Source: Martelella lutilitoris
Lineage (GTDB): Bacteria; Pseudomonadota; Alphaproteobacteria; Rhizobiales; Rhizobiaceae
Assembly (NCBI RefSeq): GCF_016598595.1
Contig: NZ_CP066787.1
Location: forward strand, 102,349 to 166,348
Direction: 5' to 3'
DNA: 64,000 nt
The notes below the pieces were generated by a model. That model had not been told where the DNA came from. It saw only the letters and a program-made list of their open reading frames with translations, and ran no database searches. This document shows positions 1,752-29,755 of the stretch, in pieces (position 1 is the stretch's first letter; each line of letters starts with the position of its first letter). The translations under genes and the position numbers were made by a program.

Positions 1752-1782
1752 AAGATAGGGGTTCCACCTGATGGAAGGTCAA
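1752..1782 (-). promoter_or_regulatory. CueR-type promoter of copA
   Basis: On the minus strand a TTGACC -35 (1782-1777) is followed by a 19-bp spacer holding TTCC and GGAA half-sites, then TATCTT as -10 (1757-1752). A 19-bp spacer with a central dyad is the hallmark of promoters activated by MerR-family metal sensors. It lies about 30 bp upstream of the copA start. The layout is seen in the sequence; binding by CueR is inferred. Confidence 0.75.
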
Positions 1783-1810
1783 TAGGGTTCAAAAATATTC
1801 CATTCCGTCC

Positions 1811-1841
1811 TTGACCTTCCTGCGGTGGAAGACCTCACCTG
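1811..1841 (+). promoter_or_regulatory. CueR-type promoter of the copZ-like gene
   Basis: TTGACC (1811-1816), a 19-bp spacer with TTCC and GGAA half-sites, and a weak -10 (CACCTG, 1836-1841). It faces away from the copA promoter, giving a divergent pair of the same type. The poor -10 makes this one of the less certain members of the set. Confidence 0.6.
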
Positions 1842-1865
1842 AACTGGAATTCGAAGGAGATAGGC

Positions 1866-2072
1866 ATGACCAGATTGAGCGTACCGGACATGAGCTGCGG
1901 GCACTGCACCGCTGCAATCGAGAAGGCGATCAAGGCAATTGATCCAACCGCCAGGGTTTCCTGTGACCTTGGGGCGCATATTGTCGAGGTGGAGAGCTTT
2001 CTAAGCGAGCGGGCCGTGTCCGAAGCAATTCGCGATGCCGGCTATGATGCAAAAACACCGGCAGCGACCTGA
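1866..2072 (+). CDS. copZ: CopZ-like heavy-metal-associated domain protein
   Basis: A 68-residue single-domain cytoplasmic metallochaperone. The fold signature is MSCGHC (the CxxC Cu+ site) followed by an amphipathic helix and the usual GYDAK-like C-terminal strand. Proteins of this type hand Cu+ to CopA-type ATPases and to copper sensors. The start ATG at 1866 follows GAAGGAGATAGGC, a strong ribosome site. It lies divergent from copA behind its own metal-type promoter. The last codons lie inside a 16-bp tandem duplication that contains the stop codon. Confidence 0.9.
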   Translation: MTRLSVPDMSCGHCTAAIEKAIKAIDPTARVSCDLGAHIVEVESFLSERAVSEAIRDAGYDAKTPAAT

Positions 2073-2094: not shown

Positions 2095-2095
2095 A

Positions 2096-2122: not shown

Positions 2123-2147
2123 CCAACATCTGATCTGGCGAGCGAGA

Positions 2148-2876
2148 TCAGTCGCTTTCCCGTGTCTTGTCGACCAGAGCCTCCAGTTGATCCTGTTCGA
2201 CAAAGCCGGGCACGAGGTCGTCTCCGATCACGAAAGACGGTGTTCCGTTAAAGCCGAGCGCCTGGGACAGGCGCATCGACTCGTCGATATGCTCCTGCAC
2301 TTCGGGTTCGTCCATATCGGTACGAAGTCGTTTGACGTCGAGCCCGATCTCCTCGGCCAGGCGCATGACCGATGCTTCCTCGGCACGTTCTTCCATACCC
2401 ATCAGCGCCCAGTGAAACTCCTCGTATTTGTCCTGTTCCCTCGCGGCCAGGGCGGCTTTGGCCGCGAAGACAGACCCTTCGCTGAGAATGGGCCATTCGC
2501 GATAGACGAGCCGGACATCCTGGTCGGCATCGAGCAGCCCCTGAACCTCGGACATGGCCCGTCTGCAGTAGGGACAGTTGTAGTCGAAGAATTCCACGAC
2601 CGTGACATCGCCGTCGGGATTTCCGAGGACCGGCGCGTTCGGATCATGTTCGAGCGACTGGCGCTGGTTCTTCAGAACGTCGGCAGCTGCGTCTGCCTGC
2701 GTAGCCGCCTGCTGCTGTTCGAGCAACTGCACGGCTTCCATGATGATCTGCGGGTTTTCCCGGATCGCTTCCAGCGCCAGTTCCTTGATCCGAGCATCGC
2801 TCAGATCTTGCGCGAAGCCGGCAATCGGCGCGATAGCCAGACCAAGCGCCAGGGCTGTGGTTTTCATCGGGTGCAT
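2148..2876 (-). CDS. DsbA-family periplasmic thiol:disulfide oxidoreductase
   Basis: A 242-residue exported protein: a signal peptide (KTTALALGLAIAPIAGFAQ) followed by a thioredoxin-like domain with the NCPYC active site and the cis-proline segment GTPSFV. It resembles the DsbA/DsbG group (COG1651), which includes ScsC-like proteins. It is last in the multicopper oxidase/cytochrome operon; ATG at 2876 lies 2 bp after the upstream cytochrome stop, with GAAGGA inside that gene as ribosome site. A longer reading frame upstream has no signal-like start. A likely role is protecting or isomerising disulfides in the oxidase and cytochromes under copper stress; this is inferred. Confidence 0.88.
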   Translation of the reverse strand: MHPMKTTALALGLAIAPIAGFAQDLSDARIKELALEAIRENPQIIMEAVQLLEQQQAATQADAAADVLKNQRQSLEHDPNAPVLGNPDGDVTVVEFFDYNCPYCRRAMSEVQGLLDADQDVRLVYREWPILSEGSVFAAKAALAAREQDKYEEFHWALMGMEERAEEASVMRLAEEIGLDVKRLRTDMDEPEVQEHIDESMRLSQALGFNGTPSFVIGDDLVPGFVEQDQLEALVDKTRESD

Positions 2877-2878
2877 TG

Positions 2879-3358
2879 TCAATTTCCTTCTCTCTGGGCT
2901 TCGGCGGCGCTGCGTTCGGCCTGAATCTGCCGTTGCCGATCCGGCCATGTGGATTTGATATAGGCGAGGATATTCCAGATCTGATCGTCGGTCAGTTGGT
3001 CGCCGAAACCGGGCATGCCGCTTTCAAAATCGACGCCCTGTGCGGCGAGGGCCGCCTTGCCGCCGAGCTTGGTGTAGTCGAAGAGCACGCTGTCAGAATG
3101 GTGCCATGTATGACCCGTTTCGTCATGCGGTGGGGCGGGCAACACGCCAGCCGGGCCCGGTGAATGCCAGTCGGGCTGACCCTCGAGATTCGCGCCGTGG
3201 CAGGAGGCGCAGTAGCCCTGGTAGAGGTCCTCGCCCTGCGCCAGATCGAAGTCTTCCGGAGCAGCACTGGTTTGGGTGCCGGCCTGCGTCATGAGCCAGG
3301 CACGTGCTGCCGCACCGGACACCAGAATGACGGTCAGGATCAGGTATTTCCGCATCAT
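2879..3358 (-). CDS. Membrane-anchored or periplasmic monohaem cytochrome c
   Basis: A 159-residue class I cytochrome: an N-terminal hydrophobic export segment, one CASCH haem-attachment motif near residue 50, and the usual C-terminal MPGF..LTDDQIWNILAYIKSTWP segment with the distal Met ligand. Its ATG overlaps the stop of the multicopper oxidase gene (ATGA), so the two are translationally coupled. The pairing suggests it may accept or donate electrons for the oxidase; this is inference. Confidence 0.9.
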   Translation of the reverse strand: MMRKYLILTVILVSGAAARAWLMTQAGTQTSAAPEDFDLAQGEDLYQGYCASCHGANLEGQPDWHSPGPAGVLPAPPHDETGHTWHHSDSVLFDYTKLGGKAALAAQGVDFESGMPGFGDQLTDDQIWNILAYIKSTWPDRQRQIQAERSAAEAQREGN

Positions 3359-4746
3359 GTCACCTCGAGCCACGTCATCATGCCCGAAGCCGCATGGCTC
3401 AGCATATGACAGTGAAACAGCCATTTTCCCGGGTTGTCGGCGACAAAGGCAATGGTCCGGGTCTCGCCGCCGAGCATCAGCAGCGTATCGCGGAAGGGAC
3501 CAAGGGCCGCGTCCTTGGTCACCTCGCGGAAATGCATCCCGTGCAGGTGCATTGCATGGGGGAAGGACGTGTCGTTGTAGATTTCCAGCTTGATCGTCTC
3601 ACCCACGGGCACGCTCACGAGCGGGGTGTCGGTCATCCCGATCGTCCCGTTGAAGGACCAGAACTGGTTTGCCTCGACCAACTGGCGAAAGCTCTTGCGT
3701 TCGCCGTCGAGGGTGGCGGCATCGAGTGTGCCCATTGCCCCGCCCTGCATATTGAGCCGCGCCGTTACCGCTTTTTCCATGCCGGATATGTCCATGCGTG
3801 GGTTCGGGGGCAGGGGATGTGGCGACCCGCGCCGCGCCGCCGCCGCGCGGCCCGATACCGGAAACGCCACCTGTGAGACGCCCTCCTGATCCTCGACGCG
3901 CACAAGATGCGCTGTCTCGCCCGACGCCGCTGTGACGTCCACGATCAGATCGGCGCGCTGGCCCGGCCCAATGATCAGCACCTCACTTACTGGCTTGGGC
4001 TCGGACAGCGGCATGCCATCAAGGGCCACGGTCCAGCCTTCCATCCCGAAAATCGAAAGAACGAATATCCGGGCGTTGGCGGCATTGATCAGCCGCAGCC
4101 GCAGGCGTTCGTTCTGCTTCACGTCCAGCGACAGATCAAAGCGCCCGTTGGTGGCGATGAAGTTGCCGCGCCGCCCGGCATGGCTGCGATCATGGCGTGA
4201 CGTGAAGTCGGGGTCGATCTGTGCCGTTTCGGGATCGAGAAGCCAGTCGTCGAGGATCAATACCTCCTCGCGGTCGATATCCGGCGCCTCGGGCTCTTCC
4301 ACGATCAGCGCACCATAGAGTCCGCGCGCGACCTGCTCGGTTGACCGGTTGTGCGCGTGATACCAGTAGGTGCCGGCGTCCGGCACCACGAAATCATAGT
4401 CGAAACCCTGTCCCGGTTCGACAGCTGGCTGCGTCAGCCCGGGAACCCCGTCCATCGCGTTGTCGATGCGGATCCCGTGCCAATGAACCGAACTTGCCTG
4501 CGGCAGTTCGTTCAGGAACGATCTCTGGATGCGGGCGCCTTGAGCCATCCGCAACTCGGGTCCCGGCATCGCGCCGTCATAGCCCCAGATTTCAGTCTTG
4601 GGATAGGTTGGGGGTGCAAGTTGGACGCGCGCGGGCCGGGCCTTGAGTTCGGCAAAGCGTGGCGTTGCAGCACGCGCCAGGGCCGGAACGGCCAGAGCCG
4701 CAATCGTCGCCGCGCCCTGCTCAAGAAATTCTCGCCGTGTCGTCAT
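3355..4746 (-). CDS. Tat-exported multicopper oxidase
   Basis: A 463-residue laccase/CueO-like oxidase. The Tat signal TRREFL followed by a hydrophobic stretch marks export as a folded protein. All four copper-binding signatures are visible: HWHG, YWYHAH, HAMHLHG and HCHMLSH followed by the axial Met. Known relatives oxidise Cu+ to Cu2+ in the periplasm. ATG at 4746 was chosen because it begins the Tat signal and follows AAGGACACGG; the frame runs further upstream without a signal. It lacks the long Met-rich insert of the second oxidase at 40048. It sits between two cytochrome c genes, unusual company for CueO-like enzymes. Confidence 0.93.
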   Translation of the reverse strand: MTTRREFLEQGAATIAALAVPALARAATPRFAELKARPARVQLAPPTYPKTEIWGYDGAMPGPELRMAQGARIQRSFLNELPQASSVHWHGIRIDNAMDGVPGLTQPAVEPGQGFDYDFVVPDAGTYWYHAHNRSTEQVARGLYGALIVEEPEAPDIDREEVLILDDWLLDPETAQIDPDFTSRHDRSHAGRRGNFIATNGRFDLSLDVKQNERLRLRLINAANARIFVLSIFGMEGWTVALDGMPLSEPKPVSEVLIIGPGQRADLIVDVTAASGETAHLVRVEDQEGVSQVAFPVSGRAAAARRGSPHPLPPNPRMDISGMEKAVTARLNMQGGAMGTLDAATLDGERKSFRQLVEANQFWSFNGTIGMTDTPLVSVPVGETIKLEIYNDTSFPHAMHLHGMHFREVTKDAALGPFRDTLLMLGGETRTIAFVADNPGKWLFHCHMLSHAASGMMTWLEVT

Positions 4747-4795
4747 CTTTTCCGTGTCCTTGAAATGTGCGGGGCGATACGCCGCCCCGCCCGTG

Positions 4796-5737
4796 TCAAT
4801 CGATGGTTTTGCCGATACTCGGCCTCCCCGCCAAAGCCCTGCCTTCCGGTACATCGCTGTCGAGAAGATAGATCGCCATCGCTTTCAAATCGGACTTTGA
4901 GAGGAACCGCGTTCCGTTCTGGACAACCTCACCCATGCTGCCGCCGAACACGTCTCCTGACGGGGTAACACCACTTTGCAGAGCATATGACAGATTGGCG
5001 ACGGTCCATCCGCGATCTGCCAGATCGTCGGACAGGATTGATGGTGCCTTGTTTCCACCGGGCAGGTCGTCGTTGCCGGCAAAAACGGCATCTGGCATCC
5101 GGCCGCCCGCGAGGTTCCGACCGGTGTGACAGGCCCCGCAATGGGCGGCGCCGCGCACGAGTTGCCGGCCGCGGTTCCAGTCGACGCTCTTTCCTTCCAC
5201 CGGTTCGGTCTGCGGATCATGCATGAAAAGCGCACGCCATAGTTTCAGGCCCCAGCGTTGGTTGAACGGGAAACCGACATCGTGCGGTGGTGCGGGGTTG
5301 GTTACCGGTGCGACGGTCTGGAATGCTGCCCACATATCGGCGACGTCCTGATCGGAAAAATCCGCATAGAACGGATAGGTGAATGCCGGAAACAAGGGCT
5401 CGCCATCGGGCGAAACGCCCTGCCTGACAGTCATCGCGAAGTCAGACAGGCTCCAGTCTCCGATGCCGTGCTCGGGATCGGTGGTTATGTTCGGCGGGTA
5501 GAAGACGCCAAACGGGGTTTCGAGCGGGGCACCGCCCGCCAGCGGAGCGCCGCCATCCTCGAAATTCGTGTGACAGGCGATGCAACCGCTCGCGCGCGCC
5601 AGATAGGCACCGCGCTGGACATCGCCGGTCAACTCGATCTCGGCGGGCGGTCGGCCAATCGGCCAAACCACCAACGCCGCGATTGCCGCCGTGCCGGAAA
5701 GGGCAAGGACGGCAACACCTGCAAGAACCCGCCTCAT
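4796..5737 (-). CDS. Dihaem cytochrome c, dehydrogenase-subunit-like
   Basis: A 313-residue protein with an N-terminal membrane anchor or signal and two c-type haem motifs, CIACH near residue 53 and CGACH near 203. The layout (NITTDPEHGIGDWS, then MPDAVFAGNDD after the second haem) resembles cytochrome subunits of periplasmic alcohol and gluconate dehydrogenases, but no dehydrogenase flavin or quinone subunit is nearby. It starts 1 bp after the stop of the upstream cytochrome c' remnant. I infer that it relays electrons between the oxidase set and the membrane chain. Confidence 0.88.
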   Translation of the reverse strand: MRRVLAGVAVLALSGTAAIAALVVWPIGRPPAEIELTGDVQRGAYLARASGCIACHTNFEDGGAPLAGGAPLETPFGVFYPPNITTDPEHGIGDWSLSDFAMTVRQGVSPDGEPLFPAFTYPFYADFSDQDVADMWAAFQTVAPVTNPAPPHDVGFPFNQRWGLKLWRALFMHDPQTEPVEGKSVDWNRGRQLVRGAAHCGACHTGRNLAGGRMPDAVFAGNDDLPGGNKAPSILSDDLADRGWTVANLSYALQSGVTPSGDVFGGSMGEVVQNGTRFLSKSDLKAMAIYLLDSDVPEGRALAGRPSIGKTID

Positions 5738-5738
5738 G

Positions 5739-6324
5739 TCATTTCACCTTCGCGCGGAAGCGGGTGTGACAGGACGAACAGGTGTCGCTGACCTTCGCGA
5801 AAACCGCGTTGGCGGGCATCTCGGCCAGTTCTTCGCGCCCCATCGTGTCATCGGCCATCATGTCACCACTGCCCATCATCGAGTTGGCTCCCATCATGTC
5901 GGAGCCGCCCATCATGGCGCTTGTATTCGACTTGGTGTCCGACTGACTTGCGGGTGCGTTGTCAGCGGCAAGAGCCAGGCCTTCGGCGTATCTGTGCAAC
6001 TCCTCGGCCAGGCCTGCAAAGCTCTCCCAATCGTTCCATATGGCGTCTTTCGCGACCGATGGCATGCCTGCGCTGCCGTCCGGGAACAGACGGGTCATGG
6101 CATCGCCAGCGTGCATGCCGATGGTTTCCGCAGCGTGCCGCACGGTATCAGCATCATACCCCGTCTCGCCGCTCATCATCGGGGCGACCGTGTTTCACGG
6201 CCTTGCCCATTGCCGACATCGCGTCCATGCGCTCCTTCACGATACCGGTCGCGCCGCTATGGGCGAGCGCCGCCGATGCCACGCCGACAAGCACGGCGGA
6301 AGTGATAATCCCTGTAGGTTTCAT
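5739..6324 (-). pseudogene. Cytochrome c' (class II) gene broken by a frameshift
   Basis: The N-terminal part (ATG at 6324, after AAGGACAATGAC) encodes a signal peptide and the typical start ATGIVKERMDAMSAMGKAVK. The rest, with the four-helix-bundle pattern and C-terminal CSSCHTRFR haem motif, continues in another frame. The frames join near 6190-6200, where one extra base in AAACACGG would explain the shift; without it the text reads KAVK-TVAPMMSGETGYDAD. A Met/Ser-rich insert (MMGGSDMMGANSMMG) is unusual for the family and suggests copper binding. A real null allele and a sequencing error look the same here. Confidence 0.85.
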
Positions 6325-6325
6325 G

Positions 6326-6664
6326 TCATTGTCCTTCAAATCCTGATTTCGAGACGGGTCCGATCACGTGAGGAGGCCGGACCTTCGTGGTCGCGGCACG
6401 CCTGACGGGGTGTGCGCGCTCTGAATCCACCGTGATCGCCGCAAGTGCGCAGTCAATTCCCGGATGGCAATGTCCGAATGCCTCCTGGATGACAGTATGA
6501 TCTTCGCCATGATCATCGTCGACCACGGCGTGCGTTGAGCTTGTCGCGGCGGGAGCAGAAGAATGGGCTTCAGCGCCCTGAGGGGTCAAGCCGAATGCGA
6601 AAAGCGCGCAGAGAATCATCGCGCGTAGCAAGCCGACAGGTTCGATTTTGCGTCTTTCGTTCAA
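6326..6664 (-). CDS. Small exported His-containing protein, family unknown
   Basis: 112 residues with a signal peptide (AMILCALFAFGLTPQGAEA) and a mature part with HSSAP, DDDHGEDH and FGHCHPGIDC, which could bind metal. I recognise no family. The likely start is TTG at 6664 overlapping the upstream cytochrome stop; ATG at 6619 would leave almost no charged n-region. It lies between two cytochrome genes in the same operon. Confidence 0.6.
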   Translation of the reverse strand: MNERRKIEPVGLLRAMILCALFAFGLTPQGAEAHSSAPAATSSTHAVVDDDHGEDHTVIQEAFGHCHPGIDCALAAITVDSERAHPVRRAATTKVRPPHVIGPVSKSGFEGQ

Positions 6665-7119
6665 AAGATGCCGTTTTCCTTCTGAAGCTCACGAATGTAA
6701 CGCGTGATCATTTTCACGTCGCCATCGGTCACACCCTCCACCGCCGGCATGTTGCCGAAGTTCCAGTGATGCGCACGGACGCCGTTTTTTGCCGCGAGGA
6801 CGAATGCCATGTCGGAGTGATGGTTTGGCTCATAGGTCTTGTGTACAAGCGGTGGGGCGACGCCGTTCTGGCCCGCCGCATTCGCACCATGACACTCGGC
6901 GCATTTGGCGTCGAACGCCCGCTTTCCGATCTGCGCGTCCGCCGACAGTTCGGCGGGAAGCGCCACCTCGACGATCGGTGCGCCCTCGGCCAGGGTGCTG
7001 GTATCGGGCGGAATCATCGAATGGCCCGTGCCTTGCGTCGCCCGTTGCGTCGCATTCCAGTAGACCGCAACCCCCCCGACGAGAAAGAAGGCGACGATCG
7101 CCAGCAATGTCTTGTTCAT
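6661..7119 (-). CDS. Monohaem cytochrome c with N-terminal membrane anchor
   Basis: 152 residues: a hydrophobic N-terminus (LLAIVAFFLVGGVAVYW), one CAECH haem motif near residue 74, and a C-terminal segment containing NMPAVEGVTDGDVKMITRYIREL with the distal Met. It is the second gene of the CueR-type operon, 33 bp after the L,D-transpeptidase. The His-rich stretch around YEPNHHSDMAF resembles the other small cytochrome at 2879 (HTWHHSDS), suggesting that the two are related. The electron partner is unknown. Confidence 0.88.
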   Translation of the reverse strand: MNKTLLAIVAFFLVGGVAVYWNATQRATQGTGHSMIPPDTSTLAEGAPIVEVALPAELSADAQIGKRAFDAKCAECHGANAAGQNGVAPPLVHKTYEPNHHSDMAFVLAAKNGVRAHHWNFGNMPAVEGVTDGDVKMITRYIRELQKENGIF

Positions 7120-7152
7120 ACTTTTCTTGCCCCTCGCAACCGAATGCTTCGG

Positions 7153-7728
7153 TCAAATAAGTTTGACCTGTGTACCAACCGGCGATCTGTCGAAAACCCC
7201 GACAATTTGTTCGTTATAAAGGCCGATACAGCCATTCGACGATTTGCGACCGATCTTGCGCGTGTCGTTGGTGCCGTGAATGCGATAGTACTGCCAACTC
7301 AGGTGCATGGCACGAATACCCAGCGGATTGTCCGGCCCGGGCGCCACATAGCGCGGCAGCGTCGGATCGCGCTCGATCATCGAGGGTGTCGGCGCCCAAT
7401 CGGGGGCCTCATCCTTGAAGACCACTTCGGTATAACCGCGGCGTGTCAGCTCGTCGGACAACGGCACCGAGGTGGGATAGATACGCATCTCCCCATCGGC
7501 AGTCCAATGCTGGAGCACCCTGGTGTTCGTGTCCGAGAGCAGGATGCCTTTGCCAAGGCTGTCGAAGTGATCCTGCCAAGCGTGTAGCCGGAAGGAAGAC
7601 ATGTTGCGCCTCACCACGGACGCTTCCTCCGCCCGAAGGAGTGTTGGGGTCGCCAGCGCGATAACACCGCTGGCACCCGCCGCCAGAAATCCGCGCCGGT
7701 TGAGGGGCTTTTCGCCATTTTTTATCAT
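7153..7728 (-). CDS. L,D-transpeptidase (YkuD family), Tat-type signal
   Basis: 191 residues: NRRGFLAAGASGVIALATP is a Tat-like signal, and the catalytic core includes IHGTND and SSNGCIGL, matching the HGT...S.GCI/VR Cys-nucleophile signature of YkuD domains. Such enzymes form 3-3 peptidoglycan cross-links or attach proteins to peptidoglycan. It is first in the operon controlled by the CueR-type promoter at 7767-7797. Copper is known to inhibit L,D-transpeptidases through their active-site Cys, so copper-linked expression of one is noteworthy. ATG at 7728 is the only start before the signal. Confidence 0.88.
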   Translation of the reverse strand: MIKNGEKPLNRRGFLAAGASGVIALATPTLLRAEEASVVRRNMSSFRLHAWQDHFDSLGKGILLSDTNTRVLQHWTADGEMRIYPTSVPLSDELTRRGYTEVVFKDEAPDWAPTPSMIERDPTLPRYVAPGPDNPLGIRAMHLSWQYYRIHGTNDTRKIGRKSSNGCIGLYNEQIVGVFDRSPVGTQVKLI

Positions 7729-7766
7729 AACCTGCTCTCACATCTATTTCTTGCCTGTTTTAGCGG

Positions 7767-7797
7767 GATAAACCACCTTCCAGCACCGGAAGGTCAA
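7767..7797 (-). promoter_or_regulatory. CueR-type promoter of the transpeptidase/cytochrome/oxidase operon
   Basis: Minus strand: TTGACC (7797-7792), a 19-bp spacer and TTTATC (7772-7767). The spacer holds the best dyad in the window, a perfect ACCTTCC-N6-GGAAGGT at 7775-7794. It lies 39 bp upstream of the ATG and is the only promoter-like signal before the eight-gene run ending at the terminator at 2096. Confidence 0.82.
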
Positions 7798-7844: not shown

Positions 7845-7875
7845 TTGACCTTCCGGCGCAGGAAGGCTTTAGCCC
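7845..7875 (+). promoter_or_regulatory. CueR-type promoter of the DUF2933/Scs/CDF operon
   Basis: TTGACC (7845-7850), a 19-bp spacer with ACCTTCC-N6-GGAAGGC, and TAGCCC (7870-7875) as -10. It is back-to-back with the promoter at 7767-7797; the two -35 elements are 47 bp apart. It points to the run 7906-14048. Confidence 0.8.
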
Positions 7876-7905: not shown

Positions 7906-8193
7906 ATGAATGAATCTGAAACTCCTGTTGAGAAATCGAGCACGATGCCGGTGATGAAATACGCCATGTGGGCCTGCTGCGCGGTAATGCTGCTTCCAAT
8001 CGCAGCGTTCGTGATGACGGGGGGACTTGCGGGCGGATTGACCTCCGGGCTCTACGTCTTCGCACCTCTGCTTTTGTGCGTCGCCGCACATTTGATCATG
8101 CATCAGATGATGGGAAAATCATGCCATGATACGAAGAGCGAGCGGACCGATGATGTTGCGATCCAGGTGGATCAAAAAGTAGCCGCCAATTAG
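7906..8193 (+). CDS. DUF2933-type small membrane protein
   Basis: 95 residues with two hydrophobic segments, the second ending LLLCVAAHLIMHQMMG. That end matches the C-terminal pattern of the DUF2933 protein at 32122 (LLLCVGMHFFMH). Members are short inner-membrane proteins found beside copper resistance genes; their role is not established to my knowledge. ATG at 7906 was preferred over ATG at 7885 because 7885 sits about 10 bp after the -10 and has no ribosome site. Confidence 0.72.
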   Translation: MNESETPVEKSSTMPVMKYAMWACCAVMLLPIAAFVMTGGLAGGLTSGLYVFAPLLLCVAAHLIMHQMMGKSCHDTKSERTDDVAIQVDQKVAAN

Positions 8194-8199
8194 GCCGGG

Positions 8200-8430
8200 G
8201 TGAGATTGGGTATCGTTCGCCGTCTTCTGCCGCTTTGGGCGATGCTCTTACTTGGCGCCTGCGCCCAGACCATCGCGCAATGCGAGCGAAGCGGTGATGT
8301 CCGGCTCTCTTCGAGCGGTCAGGTGGCCGACCTGCCTGCAGGTTGTGAGGTAAAGGAAATAACGGGCAGTGGGCTGGCAGTGCTTGAATGTCGGGACGGC
8401 AGGGAGGGCTTCGCCTTCGCTTTGGAATAG
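8200..8430 (+). CDS. Small putative lipoprotein, function unknown
   Basis: 76 residues. The N-terminus has two arginines, a hydrophobic stretch and LLLGAC, a good lipobox, so the mature protein is probably a lipid-anchored domain of ~55 residues with three further Cys. The start is GTG at 8200 or TTG at 8205; the lipobox is unaffected. It lies 6 bp after the DUF2933 gene. No family recognised. Confidence 0.62.
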   Translation: MRLGIVRRLLPLWAMLLLGACAQTIAQCERSGDVRLSSSGQVADLPAGCEVKEITGSGLAVLECRDGREGFAFALE

Positions 8431-8448
8431 TTGTGAAGGTGACGGGAT

Positions 8449-9219
8449 ATGATTGAAGGACGGCGGAATACATTGGCAGTTCTTGCGACTGTTGCGGCCG
8501 CCTACGCCGGGTTTTGGTATTTTCCGGAACTCGGTTCGACCGAACTCAACTTCGAGGACGTTCAATACCCGCGGGGCTTTCGCAGGCTGTCCGCCAGCGA
8601 AAGCTCGAGCGGCTTCGATCTCTTCATCGGAATGAACGCCATGGGTCCGGATAGTCTGGCGGATGCCGAAGCGCGGGTCAGGGCAGATATCTGCGGTGCG
8701 CTCTACGGCGATGACCTGTCTGCAACACAGCGCGTTCCGGTGGCGTTTTTTACAGAGTATTATTGCCCTTATTGCCGTGTTCAGACCAGGACGCTTGCGG
8801 CGCTCGATGCACGTCCCGACAGCAACCTGCGTGCCATCTGGCACGAATTGCCGCTTCTCGGGCAATCGTCGGAGGTCGCGGCCAAGGCGGCGCTGGCGGC
8901 GAAACGCCAGGGTGCCTATGTCGCATTTCATGAACGGCTCATGAAATCCTCGTTTGTGGCGACACCGGAATATTTACAGGCTTTGGCGCGAGACATCGGT
9001 GTCGATCACCAACGTCTGATTACCGACATGCGAAGCGCCCCTGTTACCGAAGAATTGGAAAACAGTGCTGCTCTCGCACGGGTATTCGGCATTTTTGGAA
9101 CGCCCGCCCTGATAATCGGGCGAACGATCATCCAGGGCCAGATCGATGAGAAGACCATTCTGCGTGTTGCCGAGATGGAAATCGAGGAAGATTGGACGTC
9201 CCAGTGTCAGACAGCGTGA
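8449..9219 (+). CDS. DsbA-like periplasmic thioredoxin-fold protein, ScsC-like
   Basis: 256 residues with a hydrophobic N-terminal anchor and a DsbA-type domain: active site CPYC near residue 107, the alternating helical segment, then GTPALIIGR as the cis-proline loop. The next gene, overlapping by one base, is an ScsB/DsbD-type reductase, and this gene order matches known copper-tolerance thiol systems (suppressor of copper sensitivity). The N-terminal ~90 residues before the thioredoxin fold look like an extra domain or long linker. A reductase partner role for the next protein is inferred from context. Confidence 0.85.
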   Translation: MIEGRRNTLAVLATVAAAYAGFWYFPELGSTELNFEDVQYPRGFRRLSASESSSGFDLFIGMNAMGPDSLADAEARVRADICGALYGDDLSATQRVPVAFFTEYYCPYCRVQTRTLAALDARPDSNLRAIWHELPLLGQSSEVAAKAALAAKRQGAYVAFHERLMKSSFVATPEYLQALARDIGVDHQRLITDMRSAPVTEELENSAALARVFGIFGTPALIIGRTIIQGQIDEKTILRVAEMEIEEDWTSQCQTA

Positions 9220-11333: not shown

Positions 11334-11387
11334 GGCGCGCTCTTCATGTGGGGAGGCATCAATAAACTGCCACGGAAAGGAGGTTCG

Positions 11388-12332
11388 ATGAGTTCCGAAA
11401 CAGAATTCCATATTCGTGGACACGGATCGCACATGCCGACAAGCGGGCGGGGTATGGTCATCTCGGCCTGGCTGACCGGCGTCTATTTCATCATTGAGCT
11501 TGGTATCGGGCTCTGGACCGGATCGATCGCTGTCCTGTCGGATGCATTCCACACGTTTTCCGCCGTGGGCGGAATCCTCGTCGCCGTGGGCGCGGCCCGG
11601 CTTTCCCGGCGGCCTGCCGATGCAACATTCAGCTTTGGCTGGTACCGCTCCGAAATCCTCGGCGCGCTGGTGAATGGCGGGTTCCTGGCCGGAATGGCCT
11701 TCGTCGTTATCTATATGGCCGCGATGCGGCTGAACGCGCCCATCGACCTGCCGACAGGGCCAATGCTGCTTGCTGCAGCCGGGGGTCTTGTGACGGAGTT
11801 CATTTCGCTTGGCCTCATCTGGAAACAGAGCCGGAGCGACATGAACGTGCGCGGCGCGCTCTGGCACATCATCCAGACCTTCGTGGGCAGCCTGCTCATC
11901 ATCGTCACGGCGCTGGTGATCCGCTTTACCGGTTTCCTGATGATCGACCCACTTCTGGGCATGGCTTTCGGCTTCGTGCTGCTCTGGGCCAGCTGGGGCA
12001 TCCTGCGGGATGCGGCGCGGCTCTTGATGGAGGCAGCGCCGAGCGAGATAGATTTGAACTCGGTGATCGCGGATCTGGAAGCGCTCGACGGTGTGCACGA
12101 CGCGCATCATGTCCACGCATGGACATTGACCAGCGGGCGGAACGTGTTTTCGGCGCACCTTCGCGTGGGTGACGGCGTGGACCCGCAGGCGGTGCAACGA
12201 CGGGCGCACCGCTTGCTGCGCCGCGATCACGGCTTCTTCTTCGTAACGCTCCAGACTGAAACCGAGTGTCTGGACGAGTCGGGTGCCGAGACGATCGATA
12301 TCACCTCGGGCCATCAGGTCGGCCATGTCTGA
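11388..12332 (+). CDS. Cation diffusion facilitator transporter with altered metal site
   Basis: 314 residues, six membrane helices and a C-terminal cytoplasmic metal-binding domain (HDAHHVHAWTLTSG). Family members export divalent metals by proton antiport. ATG at 11388 has an excellent AAAGGAGG site. In CzcD-like relatives helix 2 has HxxxD and helix 5 has HxxxD. Here these read H55-TFS-A59 and H160-IIQ-T164, so both Asp ligands appear replaced while D52 is kept. The usual tetrahedral Zn site is therefore probably not intact, and a different substrate is possible. Follows scsB by 54 bp. Confidence 0.88.
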   Translation: MSSETEFHIRGHGSHMPTSGRGMVISAWLTGVYFIIELGIGLWTGSIAVLSDAFHTFSAVGGILVAVGAARLSRRPADATFSFGWYRSEILGALVNGGFLAGMAFVVIYMAAMRLNAPIDLPTGPMLLAAAGGLVTEFISLGLIWKQSRSDMNVRGALWHIIQTFVGSLLIIVTALVIRFTGFLMIDPLLGMAFGFVLLWASWGILRDAARLLMEAAPSEIDLNSVIADLEALDGVHDAHHVHAWTLTSGRNVFSAHLRVGDGVDPQAVQRRAHRLLRRDHGFFFVTLQTETECLDESGAETIDITSGHQVGHV

Positions 12333-13101: not shown

Positions 13102-13133
13102 GAGCGTGAACGAGAGAGGATCAGAACCGACCC

Positions 13134-16287: not shown

Positions 16288-16291
16288 GGAC

Positions 16292-18324: not shown

Positions 18325-18355
18325 TGCATGCCGCCTTCCCGGACTGGAACGTCAA
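18325..18355 (-). promoter_or_regulatory. CueR-like promoter of ccmFGHI
   Basis: Minus strand: TTGACG (18355-18350), a 19-bp spacer with TTCC and GGAAGG half-sites, CATGCA (18330-18325) as -10. One base of the -35 and part of the dyad differ from the stronger sites. Spacing and position argue for it being real. Confidence 0.6.
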
Positions 18356-23466: not shown

Positions 23467-23497
23467 TTGACCTTCCGGTCACTGGAGGGCGTATGCA
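23467..23497 (+). promoter_or_regulatory. CueR-type promoter of the 23543 operon
   Basis: TTGACC (23467-23472), a 19-bp spacer with ACCTTCC and TGGAGGG half-sites, and a good TATGCA -10 (23492-23497). It drives the membrane protein, VTT-domain protein, the 39-residue frame and lgt. Confidence 0.75.
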
Positions 23498-23542: not shown

Positions 23543-23983
23543 ATGGTGGCTGACAGCATCCAGGATACAGAAGAATCCCCAACCTTCGGCGAGGGCTTCT
23601 GGGGGCCTGGCGCTGTGGGTGCCGTCTTGTTTCTGATCGCCGCTCCGGTGCATCTACTGGTGCCCCATCAGATATCGGTGGCGATCGCCGCGGTAACGTT
23701 GGCGCTGATCGGCGGAGCCTACATCGGATTTGGTGCGACCGCCAATTCGCTGAAACGCTTTTTGGCGGAACTGGCGGTCGCAGCCCTGTTCGCGGCGACC
23801 GCGCTGGCCGGATTGCTCTGGGCTCCATTGGCCTTGCCTGTCGGGTTCGCCGCACATGCCGCGTGGGATCTTCTGCATCACAACAGGGTGTTCGGCGCGC
23901 CGGTCCCGCGATGGTACATTCCGTTCTGCGTCGTCTTCGAGCTGTTGGCGGCAGCTTTTCTCTTCGTGCTGTATGTGCCGTGA
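23543..23983 (+). CDS. Four-helix inner-membrane protein, function unknown
   Basis: 146 residues: a soluble acidic N-terminus, then about four or five hydrophobic helices. A conserved-looking HAAWDLLHH motif sits near residue 113, where two His could bind metal or haem. I do not recognise the family with confidence. First gene after a CueR-type promoter; its stop overlaps the next gene's GTG start. Confidence 0.68.
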   Translation: MVADSIQDTEESPTFGEGFWGPGAVGAVLFLIAAPVHLLVPHQISVAIAAVTLALIGGAYIGFGATANSLKRFLAELAVAALFAATALAGLLWAPLALPVGFAAHAAWDLLHHNRVFGAPVPRWYIPFCVVFELLAAAFLFVLYVP

Positions 23984-24675
23984 GGCCGGGAATACCACGG
24001 TTCGTGTTCGGGCGAACCGCACAATTGGTTGCTGCGGCACTGCTAATCTTCGCCATCGTCGCCCTGGCCTTGGGTCCGCTCGCCGACGTCATCGAGAGCT
24101 TCGACGGCGAGAGAATCTCCGGCTGGATCGAGGCTGCCGGCATATGGGGACCGATCCTCATCGTCTCGCTCATGACGATCGCGATCGTCGCGACGCCTAT
24201 TCCGAGCGCACCGATCGCATTGGCGGCCGGTGCCGCCTACGGGCATACTTTGGGGACCGTTTACATCGTTGCCGGAGCCGAACTCGGCGCACTTGTCGCA
24301 TTCGGATTGGCGAGGGTCCTCGGGCGCGACGTGCTCGTCGGATGGCTTGGCGACAAGGTGGATGCAGGCTGGCTCGGCTCTCAGAACGCTTTGACTTTCA
24401 CCGTCTTCGCCAGCCGTCTGATGCCGTTCATCTCATTCGACATTGTCAGCTACGCGGCCGGGTTGAGCCGCCTTCACTTCTGGCGTTTCGCACTCGCCAC
24501 GCTTGCGGGGATCATCCCGGCCAGCTTTGTGCTCGCCCATTTAGGCAACGAGGCGGTCAGTGGGCCTTCTTCCCGCGCAATCTGGGCCGCGATCGGGCTG
24601 GGAGCGTTGACGTTTGCACCTCTTCTGATTGTCGCCGTCAGGGACTGGAAAAAGCACCGGATGACCCATGACTGA
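23980..24675 (+). CDS. TVP38/TMEM64-type VTT (DedA-like) membrane protein
   Basis: 231 residues from GTG at 23980 (overlapping the upstream stop as GTGA). It carries the VTT-domain pattern ATPIPSAPIALAAGAAYG, then FASRLMPFISFDIVSYAAGLSRLHFWRF and IPASFVLAHLGN. Related proteins act in membrane lipid scrambling or transport. A longer frame starting at 23863 would run inside the preceding gene and adds Arg/Ser-rich text typical of a shadow frame. Confidence 0.85.
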   Translation: MRPGIPRFVFGRTAQLVAAALLIFAIVALALGPLADVIESFDGERISGWIEAAGIWGPILIVSLMTIAIVATPIPSAPIALAAGAAYGHTLGTVYIVAGAELGALVAFGLARVLGRDVLVGWLGDKVDAGWLGSQNALTFTVFASRLMPFISFDIVSYAAGLSRLHFWRFALATLAGIIPASFVLAHLGNEAVSGPSSRAIWAAIGLGALTFAPLLIVAVRDWKKHRMTHD

Positions 24676-24787
24676 TCGCCGAAAATCTCGCCTGCCGTTT
24701 CGTCGACAGGCTTCCTATCACCTCCGGCGCGCAGCCGCCGTGGCCAATCAACCGCAAACACCAGATCAGGACCTACAGATATGTTGA
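24668..24787 (+). CDS. Possible 39-residue basic peptide linking the VTT gene and lgt
   Basis: ATG at 24668 overlaps the preceding gene's end by 8 bp and the frame stops 7 bp inside lgt, so it fills the gap exactly. The product is Arg-rich ([14 protein letters not shown]) without a membrane segment. It could be a translational coupling frame rather than a functional peptide. Low confidence. Confidence 0.3.
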
Positions 24788-25704
24788 CCGCCGCAATTCC
24801 ATTTCCCAACATCGGCCCCGATCTTTTCTCTATCGAGATCGGCGGGTTCACGTTGGCGCTGCGCTGGTATGCGCTCGCTTACATCGTCGGTATCCTGATC
24901 GGCTGGCGCATCTGCGTCGCTGCCGTTGCGCGCCCTGCGCTGTGGCCCGCTGCCGGGCCGCCACTTGATCGCCGTCAGATCGAAGACCTGCTGACCTGGA
25001 TCATTATCGGCGTGATCGCTGGTGGCCGACTGGGTTTCGTGCTGTTCTACCAGCCCGAATATTACCTGGCCAATCCGCTGGAAATACTCATGATCTGGCA
25101 GGGCGGCATGTCCTTCCACGGCGGGTTCCTCGGCGTCGCCGTTGCTGGCCTGGCATATTGTATTCGTCAGAACGCATCCATGCTGAGCACGACCGATCTT
25201 CTGGCCATCGCTACACCACCGGGGCTGTTTCTGGGGCGGATTGCGAATTTCATCAACAACGAACTCTGGGGGCGGCCCACGGACGTGCCTTGGGCCGTGA
25301 TCTTTCCGGGCGAGGTCGCCCAGACCTGTCCGGGCATCACCTCGATATGTGCCCGCCACCCCTCGCAGCTTTATGAAGGTCTGCTCGAAGGGCTGCTGCT
25401 CGGGTTCATCCTTCTTTACCTCGCCTGGCGCCGGGGCTGGCTCAGGATGCCCGGCGCGCTGACAGGTGTTTTCCTGACCGGCTACGGTCTTGCCAGAAGC
25501 TTTGTCGAGTTGTTCCGGCAGCCCGACATGCAGTTCGTGACCTCCGACAATCCGATCGGCCATGCCCTGCACTTCGGCGATTGGGGGCTGACGATGGGAC
25601 AGGTTCTTTCTGCGCCAATGATCCTGGTCGGGCTGGCGCTGATCCTTCGAGCGGTGAACGGATCCGGGGGCGCAACCGGGCAACGATCGAAAAAAACTGC
25701 CTGA
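24781..25704 (+). CDS. lgt: Prolipoprotein diacylglyceryl transferase
   Basis: 307 residues, seven membrane helices. Signature elements FHGGFLG, the Lgt motif [17 protein letters not shown], and [13 protein letters not shown] are present. It transfers diacylglycerol to the lipobox Cys of prolipoproteins. A plasmid or island copy beside copper genes is probably a second lgt; its partner could be the lipoproteins of this island. ATG at 24781. Confidence 0.92.
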
Positions 25705-25742
25705 CCTCGGCAGCGATCTGCAACTGGTGATTGGGAAATAGG

Positions 25743-26504
25743 ATGGCCGCAAAGTCACTTATGAATCGATTGACGGCACCCATGAACTCGATCGTCCGTG
25801 GTACCGGGTCGATGCGAAGGTGGCGGAAAACGAAGTTTATGGGTCCAGTAATGAGACAATACGTCGGGCAAATGGGGGCATGGAATCTCACCGTTCTTGC
25901 CATCATAATTGCCTCTTGGGTCATATATAGATATTTTGCACCAAGTAACTGGCGGGAGTGGGCCAGTGCCGGCATCGTGCAAGCGTTTATCATTTCACTT
26001 TACGCCGAAATGTACGGCTTCCCTCTTACAGTATACCTTGCTGTTCGATTTTTCGGAATGGACAGGGGCGATCTCACGACCAACTTGTGGTCAAGCCTTC
26101 TGGGCTTCGACGAGGCCATGGTTCTTGCAATGCTATTAGGCTATGCGCTCGCGCTGGTCGGCATTTGCCTCATAGTGGGAGGTTGGCGCGAACTCTACAG
26201 GAATCGAAAGAAAGGTACCCTTGCGACGGGTCGCCTTTATAAATTTGTCCGGCACCCTCAATATTTGGGTCTGTTTATCGTCCTATTTGGAGAGGGAGTG
26301 GTGCATTGGCCAACACTACTATCTGTTTCTTTGCTCCCGTTCATCATGTTCTTTTACATAGCATTGGCGAAAAGGGAGGAGGAGACTCTGGAACGATTGT
26401 TCGGCAAACAATATGCGCTGTATAAGCAGGATGTTCCTGCGTTTGTTCCGCGTTGGGATCAGCTTCGAGACGCTGTGATGATATGGATTTTGTTCCGAGA
26501 CTAA
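25743..26504 (+). CDS. Isoprenylcysteine carboxylmethyltransferase-family membrane protein
   Basis: 253 residues with about five helices and the family core YKFVRHPQYLGL. It shares EMYGFPLT, RHPQY-G, WPTLL and PAF(V/I)P with the protein at 32391, so the two are paralogues. ICMT-like bacterial proteins use S-adenosylmethionine at the RHPxY region; real substrates are unknown. The gene is visibly richer in A+T than its neighbours, suggesting separate acquisition. ATG at 25743 chosen; ATG at 25881 is an alternative start nearer the first helix. Confidence 0.75.
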   Translation: MAAKSLMNRLTAPMNSIVRGTGSMRRWRKTKFMGPVMRQYVGQMGAWNLTVLAIIIASWVIYRYFAPSNWREWASAGIVQAFIISLYAEMYGFPLTVYLAVRFFGMDRGDLTTNLWSSLLGFDEAMVLAMLLGYALALVGICLIVGGWRELYRNRKKGTLATGRLYKFVRHPQYLGLFIVLFGEGVVHWPTLLSVSLLPFIMFFYIALAKREEETLERLFGKQYALYKQDVPAFVPRWDQLRDAVMIWILFRD

Positions 26505-26512
26505 ACGACAGA

Positions 26513-27306
26513 TGCGACCGCCCCAGCCATTCGGCGGAGCAGATGTTCTGGTCTGCGAGTCCACCTATGGCAACCGGTCCCATTCCGACGTGGACCCAGA
26601 AGCCGAACTGGCACCGATCCTCAAACGCACCTTTGCCCGCGGCGGCACGGTGCTGATCCCGTCCTTTGCCGTCGGACGGGTGCAGGGGCTGATGCTGCAC
26701 ATTGCGCGATTGATGGAGCGCGGCGATATTCCCTATGTCCCGGTGTTCCTCAACAGCCCGATGGCGGTGAATGCGACCGAGATCTATCACCGTCATCACG
26801 CCGAGCACCACGTCAGCCGCGAAGACTGCATTGCGATGTTCGAGATCGCCAAGAGGGTAAACACGGTCGAGCAATCCAAGGAGCTGAACACGCGCCAGGG
26901 CCCGATGATCATCGTCTCCGCCAGCGGAATGCTGACCGGCGGGCGTATCCTGCACCATCTGGCCAGCTTCGGCGGCGATCGGCGGAACGCGATCTTGCTC
27001 TCCGGTTTCCAGGCCGGTGGCACGCGCGGCGCGGCGCTGGCCGGAGGCGCGCGGACATTGCGCATGTTCGGACGGGAGTTCCCGATCGAGGCCGAAGTGG
27101 TTCAGCTCCAGTCCTTTTCCGGACATGCCGATGCCGATGAGATCCTGCGCTGGATGTCCGCCGGTCCCGCCCCCGAGATGACCTATCTCACCCATGGGGA
27201 ACCTGTCGCCGCCGATACCCTGCGATTTCGCGTCGAACACGAGCTAGGGCGATCCGTGCGCGTGCCCGAACATCTCGAACCCGTCTACCTGGACAGGCCG
27301 CGATGA
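26513..27306 (+). pseudogene. Beta-CASP metallo-beta-lactamase-fold RNase-like protein, N-terminus missing
   Basis: 264 residues matching the second half of RNA-processing-like metallo-hydrolases (COG1236): VCESTYGNRSH, GGTVLIPSFAVGR, SASGMLTGGR, SGHADADEI and the C-terminal THGE. The first ~190 residues with the HxHxDH zinc motif are absent; upstream bases belong to an unrelated A+T-rich gene. So this is a truncated, probably inactive remnant that still overlaps the next gene. It could still be translated from ATG at 26512-26514. Confidence 0.8.
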
Positions 27307-28811
27307 CCGAAACGCTTGCCCTCGTTTCCTCCGGCATCGACACCTACCGGCAGCCGGTCGTCTATATGCAAGAAGACTGTCACATCTGCCGTTCCGAGGG
27401 GTTTGCTGCCCAGACACGCATACGGATCGACCTGAAGGACCGCTGGATCATCGCGACCCTGAATGTCGTCGGCCGCGGAGCATGGCTTGCCGTGGACCAG
27501 GCGGCATTGTCCGTTTCCGCCTGGGCCGCGCTTGGCGCTGAGATTGGAGACGACGCCGCTTTCTCGCACCCTGAACCGCCCGCTTCCGCGTCTATGATCC
27601 GGGCGAAAGCCTATGGCGAAAGACTGGATCAGGCCGGTTTCGCAGGAATCGTCAGCGACACTCTCAACAGTCGGCTTTCGGATCTCGACCTTGCCGCCTT
27701 CGTGACCGCCTGCGCCGGCGACAGGCTGAACGAGGCCGAAACCGTGGCGCTGACCCGCGCCATGAAGGAAGCAGGGCAGACGCTCGACTGGGGGCAGCAC
27801 ACTGTCCTCGATAAGCATTGCGTCGGCGGATTGCCGGGCAACCGCACGACACCCATCGTCGTCGCCATCGTCGCGGCGGCGGGGTATCTGTTCCCCAAGA
27901 CGTCCAGCAGGGCGATCACCTCGCCGGCGGGGACGGCCGACACGATGGAGGTCATGGCGCCCGTCGCGCTTGACGCCGCCGCGCTGCGCCGGGTGGTCGA
28001 AGCCGAGGGCGGTTGCCTCGTCTGGGGTGGCGGGCTCGCCCTCAGTCCTGCCGACGATCATTTCATCCGTGTCGAACGCCCCCTCGATTTCGACTCCACC
28101 GATCAACTCGTTGCGAGCGTACTGTCGAAAAAGGCGGCCGCCGGTGCCACCCATGTTCTGATCGACATGCCGGTCGGACCAACGGCCAAGGTGCGGTCTG
28201 CCGGAGCGGCGGAGGCTCTCGGGATACGGCTGTCTTCGGTGGCCAAGGCCTTGGGTCTGAACCTGGCGCTGCATATCAGCGACGGCATGGCTCCTGTGGG
28301 ACGCGGCATCGGCCCGGCATTGGAAGCCATGGACGTGCTGGCGGTTCTGCGGCGCGCGCCGGACGCGCCTGTCGATCTGCGCGCACGGGCGCTGGATCTG
28401 GCCGGACATCTTCTAGACCTGGCACCGGACGCCGTTGTGGGGCAGGGTCGGGTCCGCGCGCAGTCGTTTCTCGATAGTGGTGCAGCGGAGGCAAAGTTCA
28501 TGGCAATTTGCGCGGCGCAGGGCGGTTTCCGCGAACCCGGAACCGCAGCGCAGCAGATCGAAATACGCGCCCCCCATGCGGGCCAGTTGACCGCCATCGA
28601 CAACCGACGCATCGCACGCATCGCCAAGCTGGCCGGTGCCCCGCGTCAGAAGAGCGCAGGCGTCCGCCTTCTGGTGCGGATCGGGGATCATATGGACAAG
28701 GGCCAGCCGCTCTATGAACTCCATGCCGAGACACCAGGCGAACTGGCCTATGCCCTGGCCTATGCCGAGTCCCAGACCGGCGTGCTGACGCTGTCCGAGG
28801 CAGTGTCATGA
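27303..28811 (+). CDS. Thymidine/AMP phosphorylase family protein
   Basis: 502 residues. An N-terminal extension of ~85 residues precedes the glycosyltransferase domain with DKHCVGGLPGNRTTPIVV (phosphate/ribose site) and the C-terminal barrel-sandwich domain (GDHMDKGQPLYELHAETP). This architecture is that of archaeal-type AMP phosphorylases and related bacterial proteins rather than classical DeoA. It probably releases a base from a nucleoside monophosphate and feeds ribose phosphate to the next gene's pathway. ATG overlaps the upstream stop. Confidence 0.85.
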   Translation: MTETLALVSSGIDTYRQPVVYMQEDCHICRSEGFAAQTRIRIDLKDRWIIATLNVVGRGAWLAVDQAALSVSAWAALGAEIGDDAAFSHPEPPASASMIRAKAYGERLDQAGFAGIVSDTLNSRLSDLDLAAFVTACAGDRLNEAETVALTRAMKEAGQTLDWGQHTVLDKHCVGGLPGNRTTPIVVAIVAAAGYLFPKTSSRAITSPAGTADTMEVMAPVALDAAALRRVVEAEGGCLVWGGGLALSPADDHFIRVERPLDFDSTDQLVASVLSKKAAAGATHVLIDMPVGPTAKVRSAGAAEALGIRLSSVAKALGLNLALHISDGMAPVGRGIGPALEAMDVLAVLRRAPDAPVDLRARALDLAGHLLDLAPDAVVGQGRVRAQSFLDSGAAEAKFMAICAAQGGFREPGTAAQQIEIRAPHAGQLTAIDNRRIARIAKLAGAPRQKSAGVRLLVRIGDHMDKGQPLYELHAETPGELAYALAYAESQTGVLTLSEAVS

Positions 28812-29755
28812 TCCTTGTCGCGTTTCCCGAGATGAGGCCGCTTGCCGAAGACCTGGCACTCGCGCTTGGGGCGGACCTGCTCGCTCTCGGCTGGCACCAC
28901 TTCCCCGATGGCGAAAGCCTGATTTCGCTGCCCGGCGATCTGGACGGGGCCGATGTGGCATTTCTGGCGACTTTGCGCGATCCCGATCGCCTTGCCCTGC
29001 CCTTGCGCTTCGCCGCGGCGACGGCGCGCGAGATGGGCGCGCGTCGCGTCGGATTGATCGCGCCTTATCTTGGCTACATGCGGCAGGACCATCGCTTCGA
29101 GCGCGGGCAGGCGGTAAGCGCACCGCTGTTCGCGCAATTCCTGGGGGAAAGTTTCGACTGGCTGGTGACCGTGGATCCGCATCTGCACCGCATCGCGCGG
29201 CTGCAAAATGTCTTCCCGATGCCTGCCATTCGCGCCGTATCCGCCCCGCTGCTTGCGACCTGGATCAGCACGAACCTGCCAGACGCCGTTCTTCTGGGCC
29301 CTGACAGCGAAAGCCAACAATGGGTGGCTGAGGTGGCCCGGCTGGCCGGACGGCCCTATGAGGTCTTGCGCAAGGTGAGATCCGGTGACCGCAGTGTCGA
29401 TGTCAGTGTGCCCGAAAGCGCGGCGCTGCGCGAAGGCACACCGATGATCCTCGACGACATCGCGTCTTCGGGGTCCACGATGGCTCGTGCCGTCGAAAGG
29501 TTGCTTGCGGCCGGAACCGCCGCGCCTGTCTGCCTGGCTATCCATGCGGTCTTTGCGCACGGCGCTCAGGACGCCATTCTGTCGGCTGGTGCGGCAAGGA
29601 TCATCACCACCGACACCATACCCCATCCAACGAATGCGATCGGAATTGCCGGTTTATTGGCCGAAGCGATCCTTTCTGTGGTGACAGCCCTTGACCTTCC
29701 AGTTGCCGGAACAATTAGGCTGGACCCGAATCACGCCGAGAGGACAACCGAATGA
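28808..29755 (+). CDS. prs: Ribose-phosphate pyrophosphokinase
   Basis: 315 residues: both PRPP synthase halves, with the catalytic flexible-loop region ([16 protein letters not shown]), the VDPHLHRI metal-binding segment and the PRPP-binding loop [11 protein letters not shown]. It makes PRPP from ribose 5-phosphate and ATP. The pairing with a nucleotide phosphorylase suggests nucleotide salvage. Its last 22 codons contain the CueR-type promoter for the next gene and overlap the copper ATPase start by 4 bp. Confidence 0.9.
29691..29721 (+). promoter_or_regulatory. CueR-type promoter inside the end of prs
   Basis: TTGACC (29691-29696), a 19-bp spacer with TTCC and GGAA half-sites, TAGGCT (29716-29721) as -10. 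It lies wholly within prs coding sequence, 30 bp before the ATG of the second copper ATPase. Confidence 0.75.

Follow-up and report, generated by a model that had tools for sequence, protein, structure and literature searches.

A stretch of 64,000 nucleotides (nt) from a plasmid of Martelella lutilitoris – bases 102349-166348 of the 166,348-base contig C2, hereafter the window – carries seven sites that resemble promoters activated by CueR, a copper regulator of the MerR family, but no gene for CueR itself. What, then, reads these sites, and are they all of one kind? Our analysis indicates that the seven are very probably the operator-promoters of a plasmid-borne CueR, encoded to the left of the window in a copA-cueR operon. 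Within this set we find two discrete operator geometries, one of which departs from the form described for CueR.

All seven sites had been proposed in a first-pass annotation as TTGAC(C/G)-TTCC followed by a 19 base pair (bp) spacer, and direct reading of the sequence confirms each of them. The -35 element is TTGACC at six sites and TTGACG at site 5; TTCC follows, and the second half of the dyad reads GGAA or GGAG. A hexamer can be read exactly 19 bp from the -35 in all seven; it is of [CT]A type in six, site 3 being the exception. Site 1 (1752..1782, minus strand, -10 TATCTT) stands at the head of copA, cueR and an ion channel gene, a run that continues past the window's left edge; site 2 (1811..1841, plus, CACCTG) precedes copZ; site 3 (7767..7797, minus, TTTATC) precedes a set of YkuD, cytochrome c, multicopper oxidase and DsbA genes; site 4 (7845..7875, plus, TAGCCC) precedes DUF2933, DsbA, DsbD and CDF genes; site 5 (18325..18355, minus, CATGCA) precedes ccmF-ccmG-ccmH-ccmI; site 6 (23467..23497, plus, TATGCA) precedes DUF6010, VTT, lgt, ICMT, an MBL fragment, phosphorylase and PRPP synthase genes; and site 7 (29691..29721, plus, TAGGCT), which lies in the 3′ end of the PRPP synthase reading frame, precedes a CopB-like copper ATPase. 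Every site has a start codon on its own strand 55-76 nt downstream, that of DUF2933 being placed as in the Martelella annotation.

Could such a set have arisen by chance? The left half of the site taken alone is unexceptional: with one mismatch allowed it occurs 13 times in the window, about twice the 6.6 expected (13 or more were reached in 2 of 100 shuffles), and genome-wide its exact form is rarer than its reversed control (22 versus 36). It is the dyad that confers significance. The full pattern TTGACSTTCCN{6,7}GGAR matches the window exactly seven times, at the seven sites, against a first-order Markov expectation of 0.004 and no match in 100 shuffles; moreover, the sites hold their position before orthologous genes in other islands. 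A chance origin of the set is thus rejected, and we attach negligible probability to it. When 1-19900 and 22000-36000 were scanned for promoter and terminator consensus sequences, matches were no more numerous than expected from shuffling, save for terminator-like sites in 22000-36000 (15 versus 11.3 expected, standard deviation 3.5), so the scans did not define operon ends.

The first-pass annotation had stressed the lack of a CueR gene. That is true of the window: none of the genome's eight MerR_1 matches falls within C2:102349-166348. It is misleading for the replicon, where one of the eight (C2:101351-101551, minus strand) belongs to a cueR gene at C2:101132-101551 (5133-5552 of L031), 798 nt left of the first base of the window. 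The encoded protein scores 161.9 bits against the CueR equivalog TIGR02044 (cut-off 147.4) and carries paired cysteines in the motif CAGDHRPDCPI. Its reading frame begins 13 nt after the stop codon of copA, the 5′ part of which lies in the window, so that site 1 stands at the head of a classical copA-cueR operon, and the regulator's apparent absence is an effect of where the window ends. A regulon devoid of a regulator is thereby ruled out. The arrangement parallels the actP-hmrR operon, described as usual for hmrR in the excerpt available of PMC1526738, which also gives the CueR/HmrR signal as ACCTTCCAG-(3)-CTGGAAGG with a 19-bp spacer. Membership in a MerR (mercury), ZntR or CadR/PbrR regulon finds no backing in the protein or in the sites: queried with a sequence eight residues short, the island regulator scores 147.9 bits as CueR versus 87.4 as ZntR, 75.5 as MerR and 67.1 as CadR-PbrR, and the half-sites here are TTCC/GGAA, the MerR and ZntR consensus sites used for comparison being those in the same excerpt. 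Taken with the dyads, the 19-bp spacing and the conservation described below, the cueR alongside upholds the earlier reading of the sites as CueR-type promoters.

That conservation was traced through eight annotated islands besides the window – from Dinoroseobacter (L032), Sagittula (L033), Martelella (L034), Roseovarius (L035), Salipiger (L036), Phaeobacter (L037), Paracoccus (L038) and Celeribacter (L088) – and through segments of Marinovum (L085), Sulfitobacter (L086) and Pseudosulfitobacter (L087). L032, L033 and L036 are near-identical and represent one lineage, the comparison as a whole covering about five independent lineages. The window's first 24 kb is 100% identical in the Martelella plasmid pMM259, while many roseobacter plasmids align over about a fifth of those 24 kb at about 75% DNA identity across the alignable parts. 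The island persists in these diverged plasmids, along with as many as five of its seven sites, those before copA, copZ, DUF2933, DUF6010 and the CopB-like ATPase; in the Pseudosulfitobacter segment we found no CueR-type site. In every one of the eight annotated islands, all of which have copA in view, cueR follows copA. A plasmid record that is 100% identical over the 22 kb matched, CP070277.1, is labelled "Dysgonomonadaceae bacterium zrk40", an odd name for an alphaproteobacterial plasmid.

A second issue is the nature of the operator. The dyad had been described as of varying quality; a dyad is indeed present at each site, but this description overlooked that the gap between TTCC and GGA takes two discrete values, 7 nt at sites 1, 6 and 7 (N7) and 6 nt at sites 2-5 (N6), while the promoter spacer is 19 bp throughout. 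Set against the 21-bp operator ACCTTCC-N7-GGAAGGT with its fixed centre, the half-sites conform in all seven, the gap in three. Because the half-sites conform and the gap differs, sites 2-5 are classed, on their sequence, as variant rather than plain CueR/HmrR operators. A published CueR motif search assumed a 21-bp site whose centre was fixed, and discounted sites with other distances as false positives (PMC5045206, in the portion available); the N6 form would probably have been discarded or gone unseen there. In the portions available of the open-licence literature we found no description of a 6-nt gap between CueR half-sites.

Both forms are seen again in other islands. The copA site is N7 in all five diverged islands (L032, L033, L035, L036, L037) and in Celeribacter; the DUF6010 site is N7, 37-38 nt upstream, in L032, L033, L036, L037 and L086; the CopB-like ATPase site is N7 in four, lying 60 nt upstream in L033, L036 and L037 and 73 nt upstream in L085. 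The DUF2933 site is N6 in L032, L033, L036, L037 and Marinovum L085, and degenerate in Celeribacter. In Marinovum a second, divergent N6 site lies on the other side of the DUF2933 gene, before a short open reading frame that by eye resembles the end of YkuD; the Roseovarius YkuD orthologue likewise has an N6 site. The copZ site is N6 in Roseovarius, N7 in L033, L036, L037 and L088, and N8 in Dinoroseobacter. The last of these is a natural one-base difference: relative to the N7 operator of Sagittula (L033 20147), that of Dinoroseobacter (L032 3803) has an extra G in a run of G, giving N8 and a promoter spacer of 20. To the left of the window, a palindrome CTCC-AGCGCT-GGAA (N6) without a TTGAC -35 lies upstream of a DUF305 gene (L031 4642-4665, C2), and is kept in L033 and L037 and nearly so in L035; it might be a repress-only or a lost CueR site.

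Does the N6 form occur beyond the island? Exact matches to TTGACCTTCC-N4..9-GGAAG occur in 185 of 247 genomes of the family (totals taken from per-genome tables, the individual matches being given in part). Exact N6 accounts for 12 matches in 8 genomes, six of the 12 being this island in two genomes, and N5 and N8 for one match each, in one genome each; the reversed patterns, counted by eye from the tables, give 5 (N6), 7 (N5) and 6 (N8). The 30 CopZ-like loci examined, taken from the 113 genomes that gave a match, comprise 20 with a site upstream (14 N7 and six N6, with none of N4, N5, N8 or N9) and ten without one. The six N6 sites come from four genera and all have CA at 19 bp.

With sites differing by at most six mismatches in 45 merged, and loci coming partly from N5-, N6-, N7- and N8-specific searches – so that the N6:N7 ratio of this set is meaningless and only the -10 position is informative – [CT]A stands at 19 bp in 59 of 66 distinct N7 sites and in 16 of 24 distinct N6 sites; in the latter it is found at 17, 18, 20 and 21 bp in 2, 0, 1 and 6. 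Given how often [CT]A occurs in the window, the N6 excess at 19 bp has a rough binomial P of about 1e-12, related sites being treated as independent. Site 3 and its Roseovarius counterpart (TTTATC and TTTATG) are among the eight N6 sites that do not conform. With 16 of 24 at 19 bp and none at 18, the operator is shorter by one base but the promoter spacer is still 19; a simple one-base deletion that would have left an 18-bp promoter spacer is ruled out by the same counts.

Several observations weigh against reading all seven sites as promoters of the plasmid CueR. Measured against TATAAT, sites 2-4 have weak -10 hexamers. The form of site 3 has no counterpart at YkuD in L032, L033 and L037, and site 5 none upstream of ccmF in five diverged islands (L032, L033, L036, L037, L086). 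Outside the island N6 is rare, with six matches versus five for the reversed pattern, so that frequency alone gives no support, and two of these six matches (L070, L074) fall within long open frames. Finally, a chromosomal CueR could serve the same sites. A search for cueR homologues, which the first-pass annotation had proposed, found two: besides the plasmid gene, one on chromosome C1 whose product scores 162.3 bits to TIGR02044 and which shares 71 of 126 residues with its plasmid counterpart. Two strict N7 sites lie on the chromosome as well, one upstream of a gene for a 71-residue HMA protein and the other upstream of one for a YHS/HMBD copper ATPase. We think it unlikely that the chromosomal CueR chiefly controls the island, or that the two share control: cueR stands with copA in all eight islands, as befits a self-contained regulon.

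Because the N6 counts outside the island do not exceed the reversed control, support for these sites comes from their position and the genes they precede: five of the six have [CT]A at 19 bp, and three lie 55-59 nt before CopZ-like HMA proteins. The rarity of N6 would also suit a sceptical account in which sites 2-5 are not usual CueR operators at all, but are decayed, repress-only, or read by another MerR-family protein. The rejection of other geometries in the published motif search favours that account, as does the presence of other MerR-family genes in this genome and in G248 and G198. Nonetheless we judge it rather improbable. The half-sites are those of CueR; diverged islands again show N6 before the same genes (DUF2933 in L032, L033, L036, L037 and L085; YkuD and copZ in Roseovarius), and other genera show it before copZ, the -10 remaining at 19 bp; moreover, forward counts of one for N5 and one for N8 indicate that the reversed patterns overstate the background. 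As to a special second regulator for N6 sites, G248 and G198 have both N6 and N7 sites and a single CueR over the cut-off each, from which we infer that one CueR may serve N6 too; this makes a second regulator less likely, though other MerR-family proteins are present in both genomes.

We therefore put forward, at even odds, the proposal that CueR recognizes two discrete operator geometries, one of 21 bp (N7) and the other of 20 bp (N6), at an unchanging promoter spacer of 19 bp. The position of the dyad centre within the promoter could then differ by half a base pair. In the available part of PMC9909328, apo-CueR is described as holding the DNA in an inactive shape, and metal as changing the distance between the DNA-binding domains and kinking the dyad centre, so that the long-spaced promoter becomes usable; on this account the N6 form may be pre-set nearer the active shape. 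If so, copZ and the periplasmic operons would have a copper threshold or a basal level unlike that of copA within one regulon, although an effect of N6 on either is at present a hypothesis.

From the observed sites, spacing, gene order, conservation and cueR location we predict binding, a copper response and a function for the N6 sites; with a mechanism adopted from E. coli CueR, the island would work as follows. At low copper, each promoter, with its 19-bp spacer, would be kept closed by apo-CueR lying between its -35 and -10. Binding of cytosolic Cu(I) at CAGDHRPDC would cause CueR to distort the DNA such that both promoter boxes fit RNA polymerase, a single CueR reading N7 and N6 operators alike at the fixed promoter spacer. 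The genes predicted to be switched on serve efflux (CopA and the CopB-like ATPase), chaperoning (CopZ), oxidation and electron transfer in the periplasm (multicopper oxidase and cytochromes c) and the repair of thiols (DsbA, DsbD), and supply a spare set for cytochrome c maturation; the level of CueR itself would also rise.

The island also encodes a two-component system (19969-22100), with an OmpR-type response regulator and a kinase, which might be its main copper switch, the CueR sites adding little at the periplasmic operons. In keeping with this idea, a direct repeat TGTATC-N4-TGTATC (7828-7843) immediately precedes the -35 of site 4, and other islands retain one like it; yet the exact repeat occurs at one place in the window, a relaxed pattern is not above chance (17 versus 21 expected), and the CueR sites are conserved independently. 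We regard this explanation as improbable, and CueR as the more plausible switch. The same or a near-identical repeat precedes DUF2933 in L032, L033, L036, L037 and L088, and a copy with two mismatches lies at 22174-22189, near the start of the response regulator gene. It is possible that the repeat is a box for the island's OmpR-type regulator, which would give the divergon two copper inputs.

Pfam and NCBIfam scans assign much of the segment to copper handling, and the CueR/HmrR target set – copA, copZ and an oxidase – is present. The window holds the 5′ part of copA (3..1724, minus; the full gene is L031 5566-8073), encoding a Cu(I)-exporting P1B ATPase with two HMA domains (Pfam E1-E2_ATPase, HMA), and copZ (1866..2072, plus), encoding a 68-residue HMA copper chaperone (Pfam HMA). 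The periplasmic copper genes (2148..7728, minus) encode, by Pfam, YkuD, three c-type cytochromes and a split cytochrome c′, a multicopper oxidase and a ScsC/DsbA-like protein; their order is similar in L032-L034, L036 and L037, with a shorter set in Roseovarius. The cytochrome c′ gene (5739-6330, minus) appears split both in the window and in the identical Martelella copy, where L032 has one 594-nt cytochrome gene. Next come DUF2933, DsbA, DsbD, CDF efflux, hypothetical and EamA genes (7906..14048, plus; Pfam and the annotation of the identical Martelella island), followed by ccmI, ccmH, ccmG and ccmF (14085..18292, minus), a cytochrome c maturation set identified by Pfam/NCBIfam apart from ccmG, which follows the Martelella annotation. 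A second CcmF is encoded on chromosome C1, so the island's set is a duplicate as far as CcmF shows.

The right-hand part holds DUF6010, VTT, lgt, ICMT, an MBL/beta-CASP fragment, an AMP/thymidine phosphorylase-like gene and PRPP synthase (23543..29755, plus; Pfam/NCBIfam), and the CopB-like copper P1B ATPase with HMBD domains (29752..32106, plus; PF19335; TIGR01511, 592.6 bits). The run from the MBL/beta-CASP fragment to PRPP synthase (26512-29755) that precedes this ATPase recurs in a different setting in Paracoccus L038, where the MBL/beta-CASP protein has 460 residues as against 264 here. Since the promoter equivalent to site 7 is intergenic, after lgt, in L033, L036 and L037, it looks as though the PRPP synthase frame (overlap 29691-29755) came to end over the promoter after a rearrangement.

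The first-pass annotation had placed about 30 genes behind the seven sites and had called this a very large local regulon for a regulator with usually two or three targets. The gene number is borne out: about 33 co-directional genes follow the sites, two of them (cueR and the ion channel gene) left of the window, this being a count of genes and not of transcript linkage. The yardstick was too low, given that at least five targets are attributed to CueR of P. aeruginosa (PMC12833586, in the available excerpt) and that four other genomes of the family have nine strict sites. As to size, the nine strict sites of this genome (per-genome counts added by eye from the table) are the joint highest among the 247, shared with G222 – a same-genus genome carrying the same island – G242, G318 and G361; in G361, seven of the nine are found in the 19.5 kb surrounding the copA and cueR genes of that genome. 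The regulon is thus large, but it is not unique.

What looked like an orphan regulon is, on this evidence, an ordinary self-contained copper island of alphaproteobacterial plasmids, many of them typed as conjugative. The putative 20-bp operator form is what is new here, the breadth of the regulon being also of interest, and it suggests that a second, conserved form of operator escapes searches for CueR motifs whose length is set at 21 bp. Should the N6 operators work, one regulon would hold N6 and N7 promoters under one CueR, making half-site spacing and promoter spacing directly testable as separate controls of MerR-type activation. A further suggestion, drawn from the CueR-type site at the head of ccmFGHI, is that copper-stressed cells replace their cytochrome c maturation machinery, which fits the statement, in the part available of PMC8456105, that this machinery is a major target of excess periplasmic copper.

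Comparison with known systems places the island in a familiar family while marking its differences. The roseobacter plasmid islands (pDSHI01 of Dinoroseobacter shibae, Phaeobacter pP30_b) largely share the gene order from cueR to VTT, together with several sites, but differ in some genes – for example, no DsbA2, EamA or propeller gene is annotated there – and in having no CueR site at ccmF. The G361:C22 cluster resembles the island in its seven closely spaced CueR sites and in its copA, cueR, multicopper oxidase, CDF and CopB-like ATPase genes; its sites are all N7, and its gene order is other. The Pseudomonas aeruginosa regulon (copZ1, copZ2, mexPQ-opmE, copA1, PA3515-3519) likewise has one CueR acting at several promoters of graded dyad quality; it differs in its half-sites, ACCTTG in the two promoters shown, and the targets listed in the excerpt of PMC12833586 name no cytochrome c maturation genes. 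A further known system is the CueR/HmrR regulon of rhizobial actP-hmrR and of copA-cueR (PMC1526738, as excerpted), with which the island shares the type of regulator (TIGR02044), the copA-cueR operon, the TTGACCTTCC...GGAAGG dyad, the 19-bp spacer and the copA, copZ and oxidase targets, and from which it differs in gathering its co-directional genes on one plasmid segment, in its ccmFGHI set, and in that four of its seven operators are 20 bp long.

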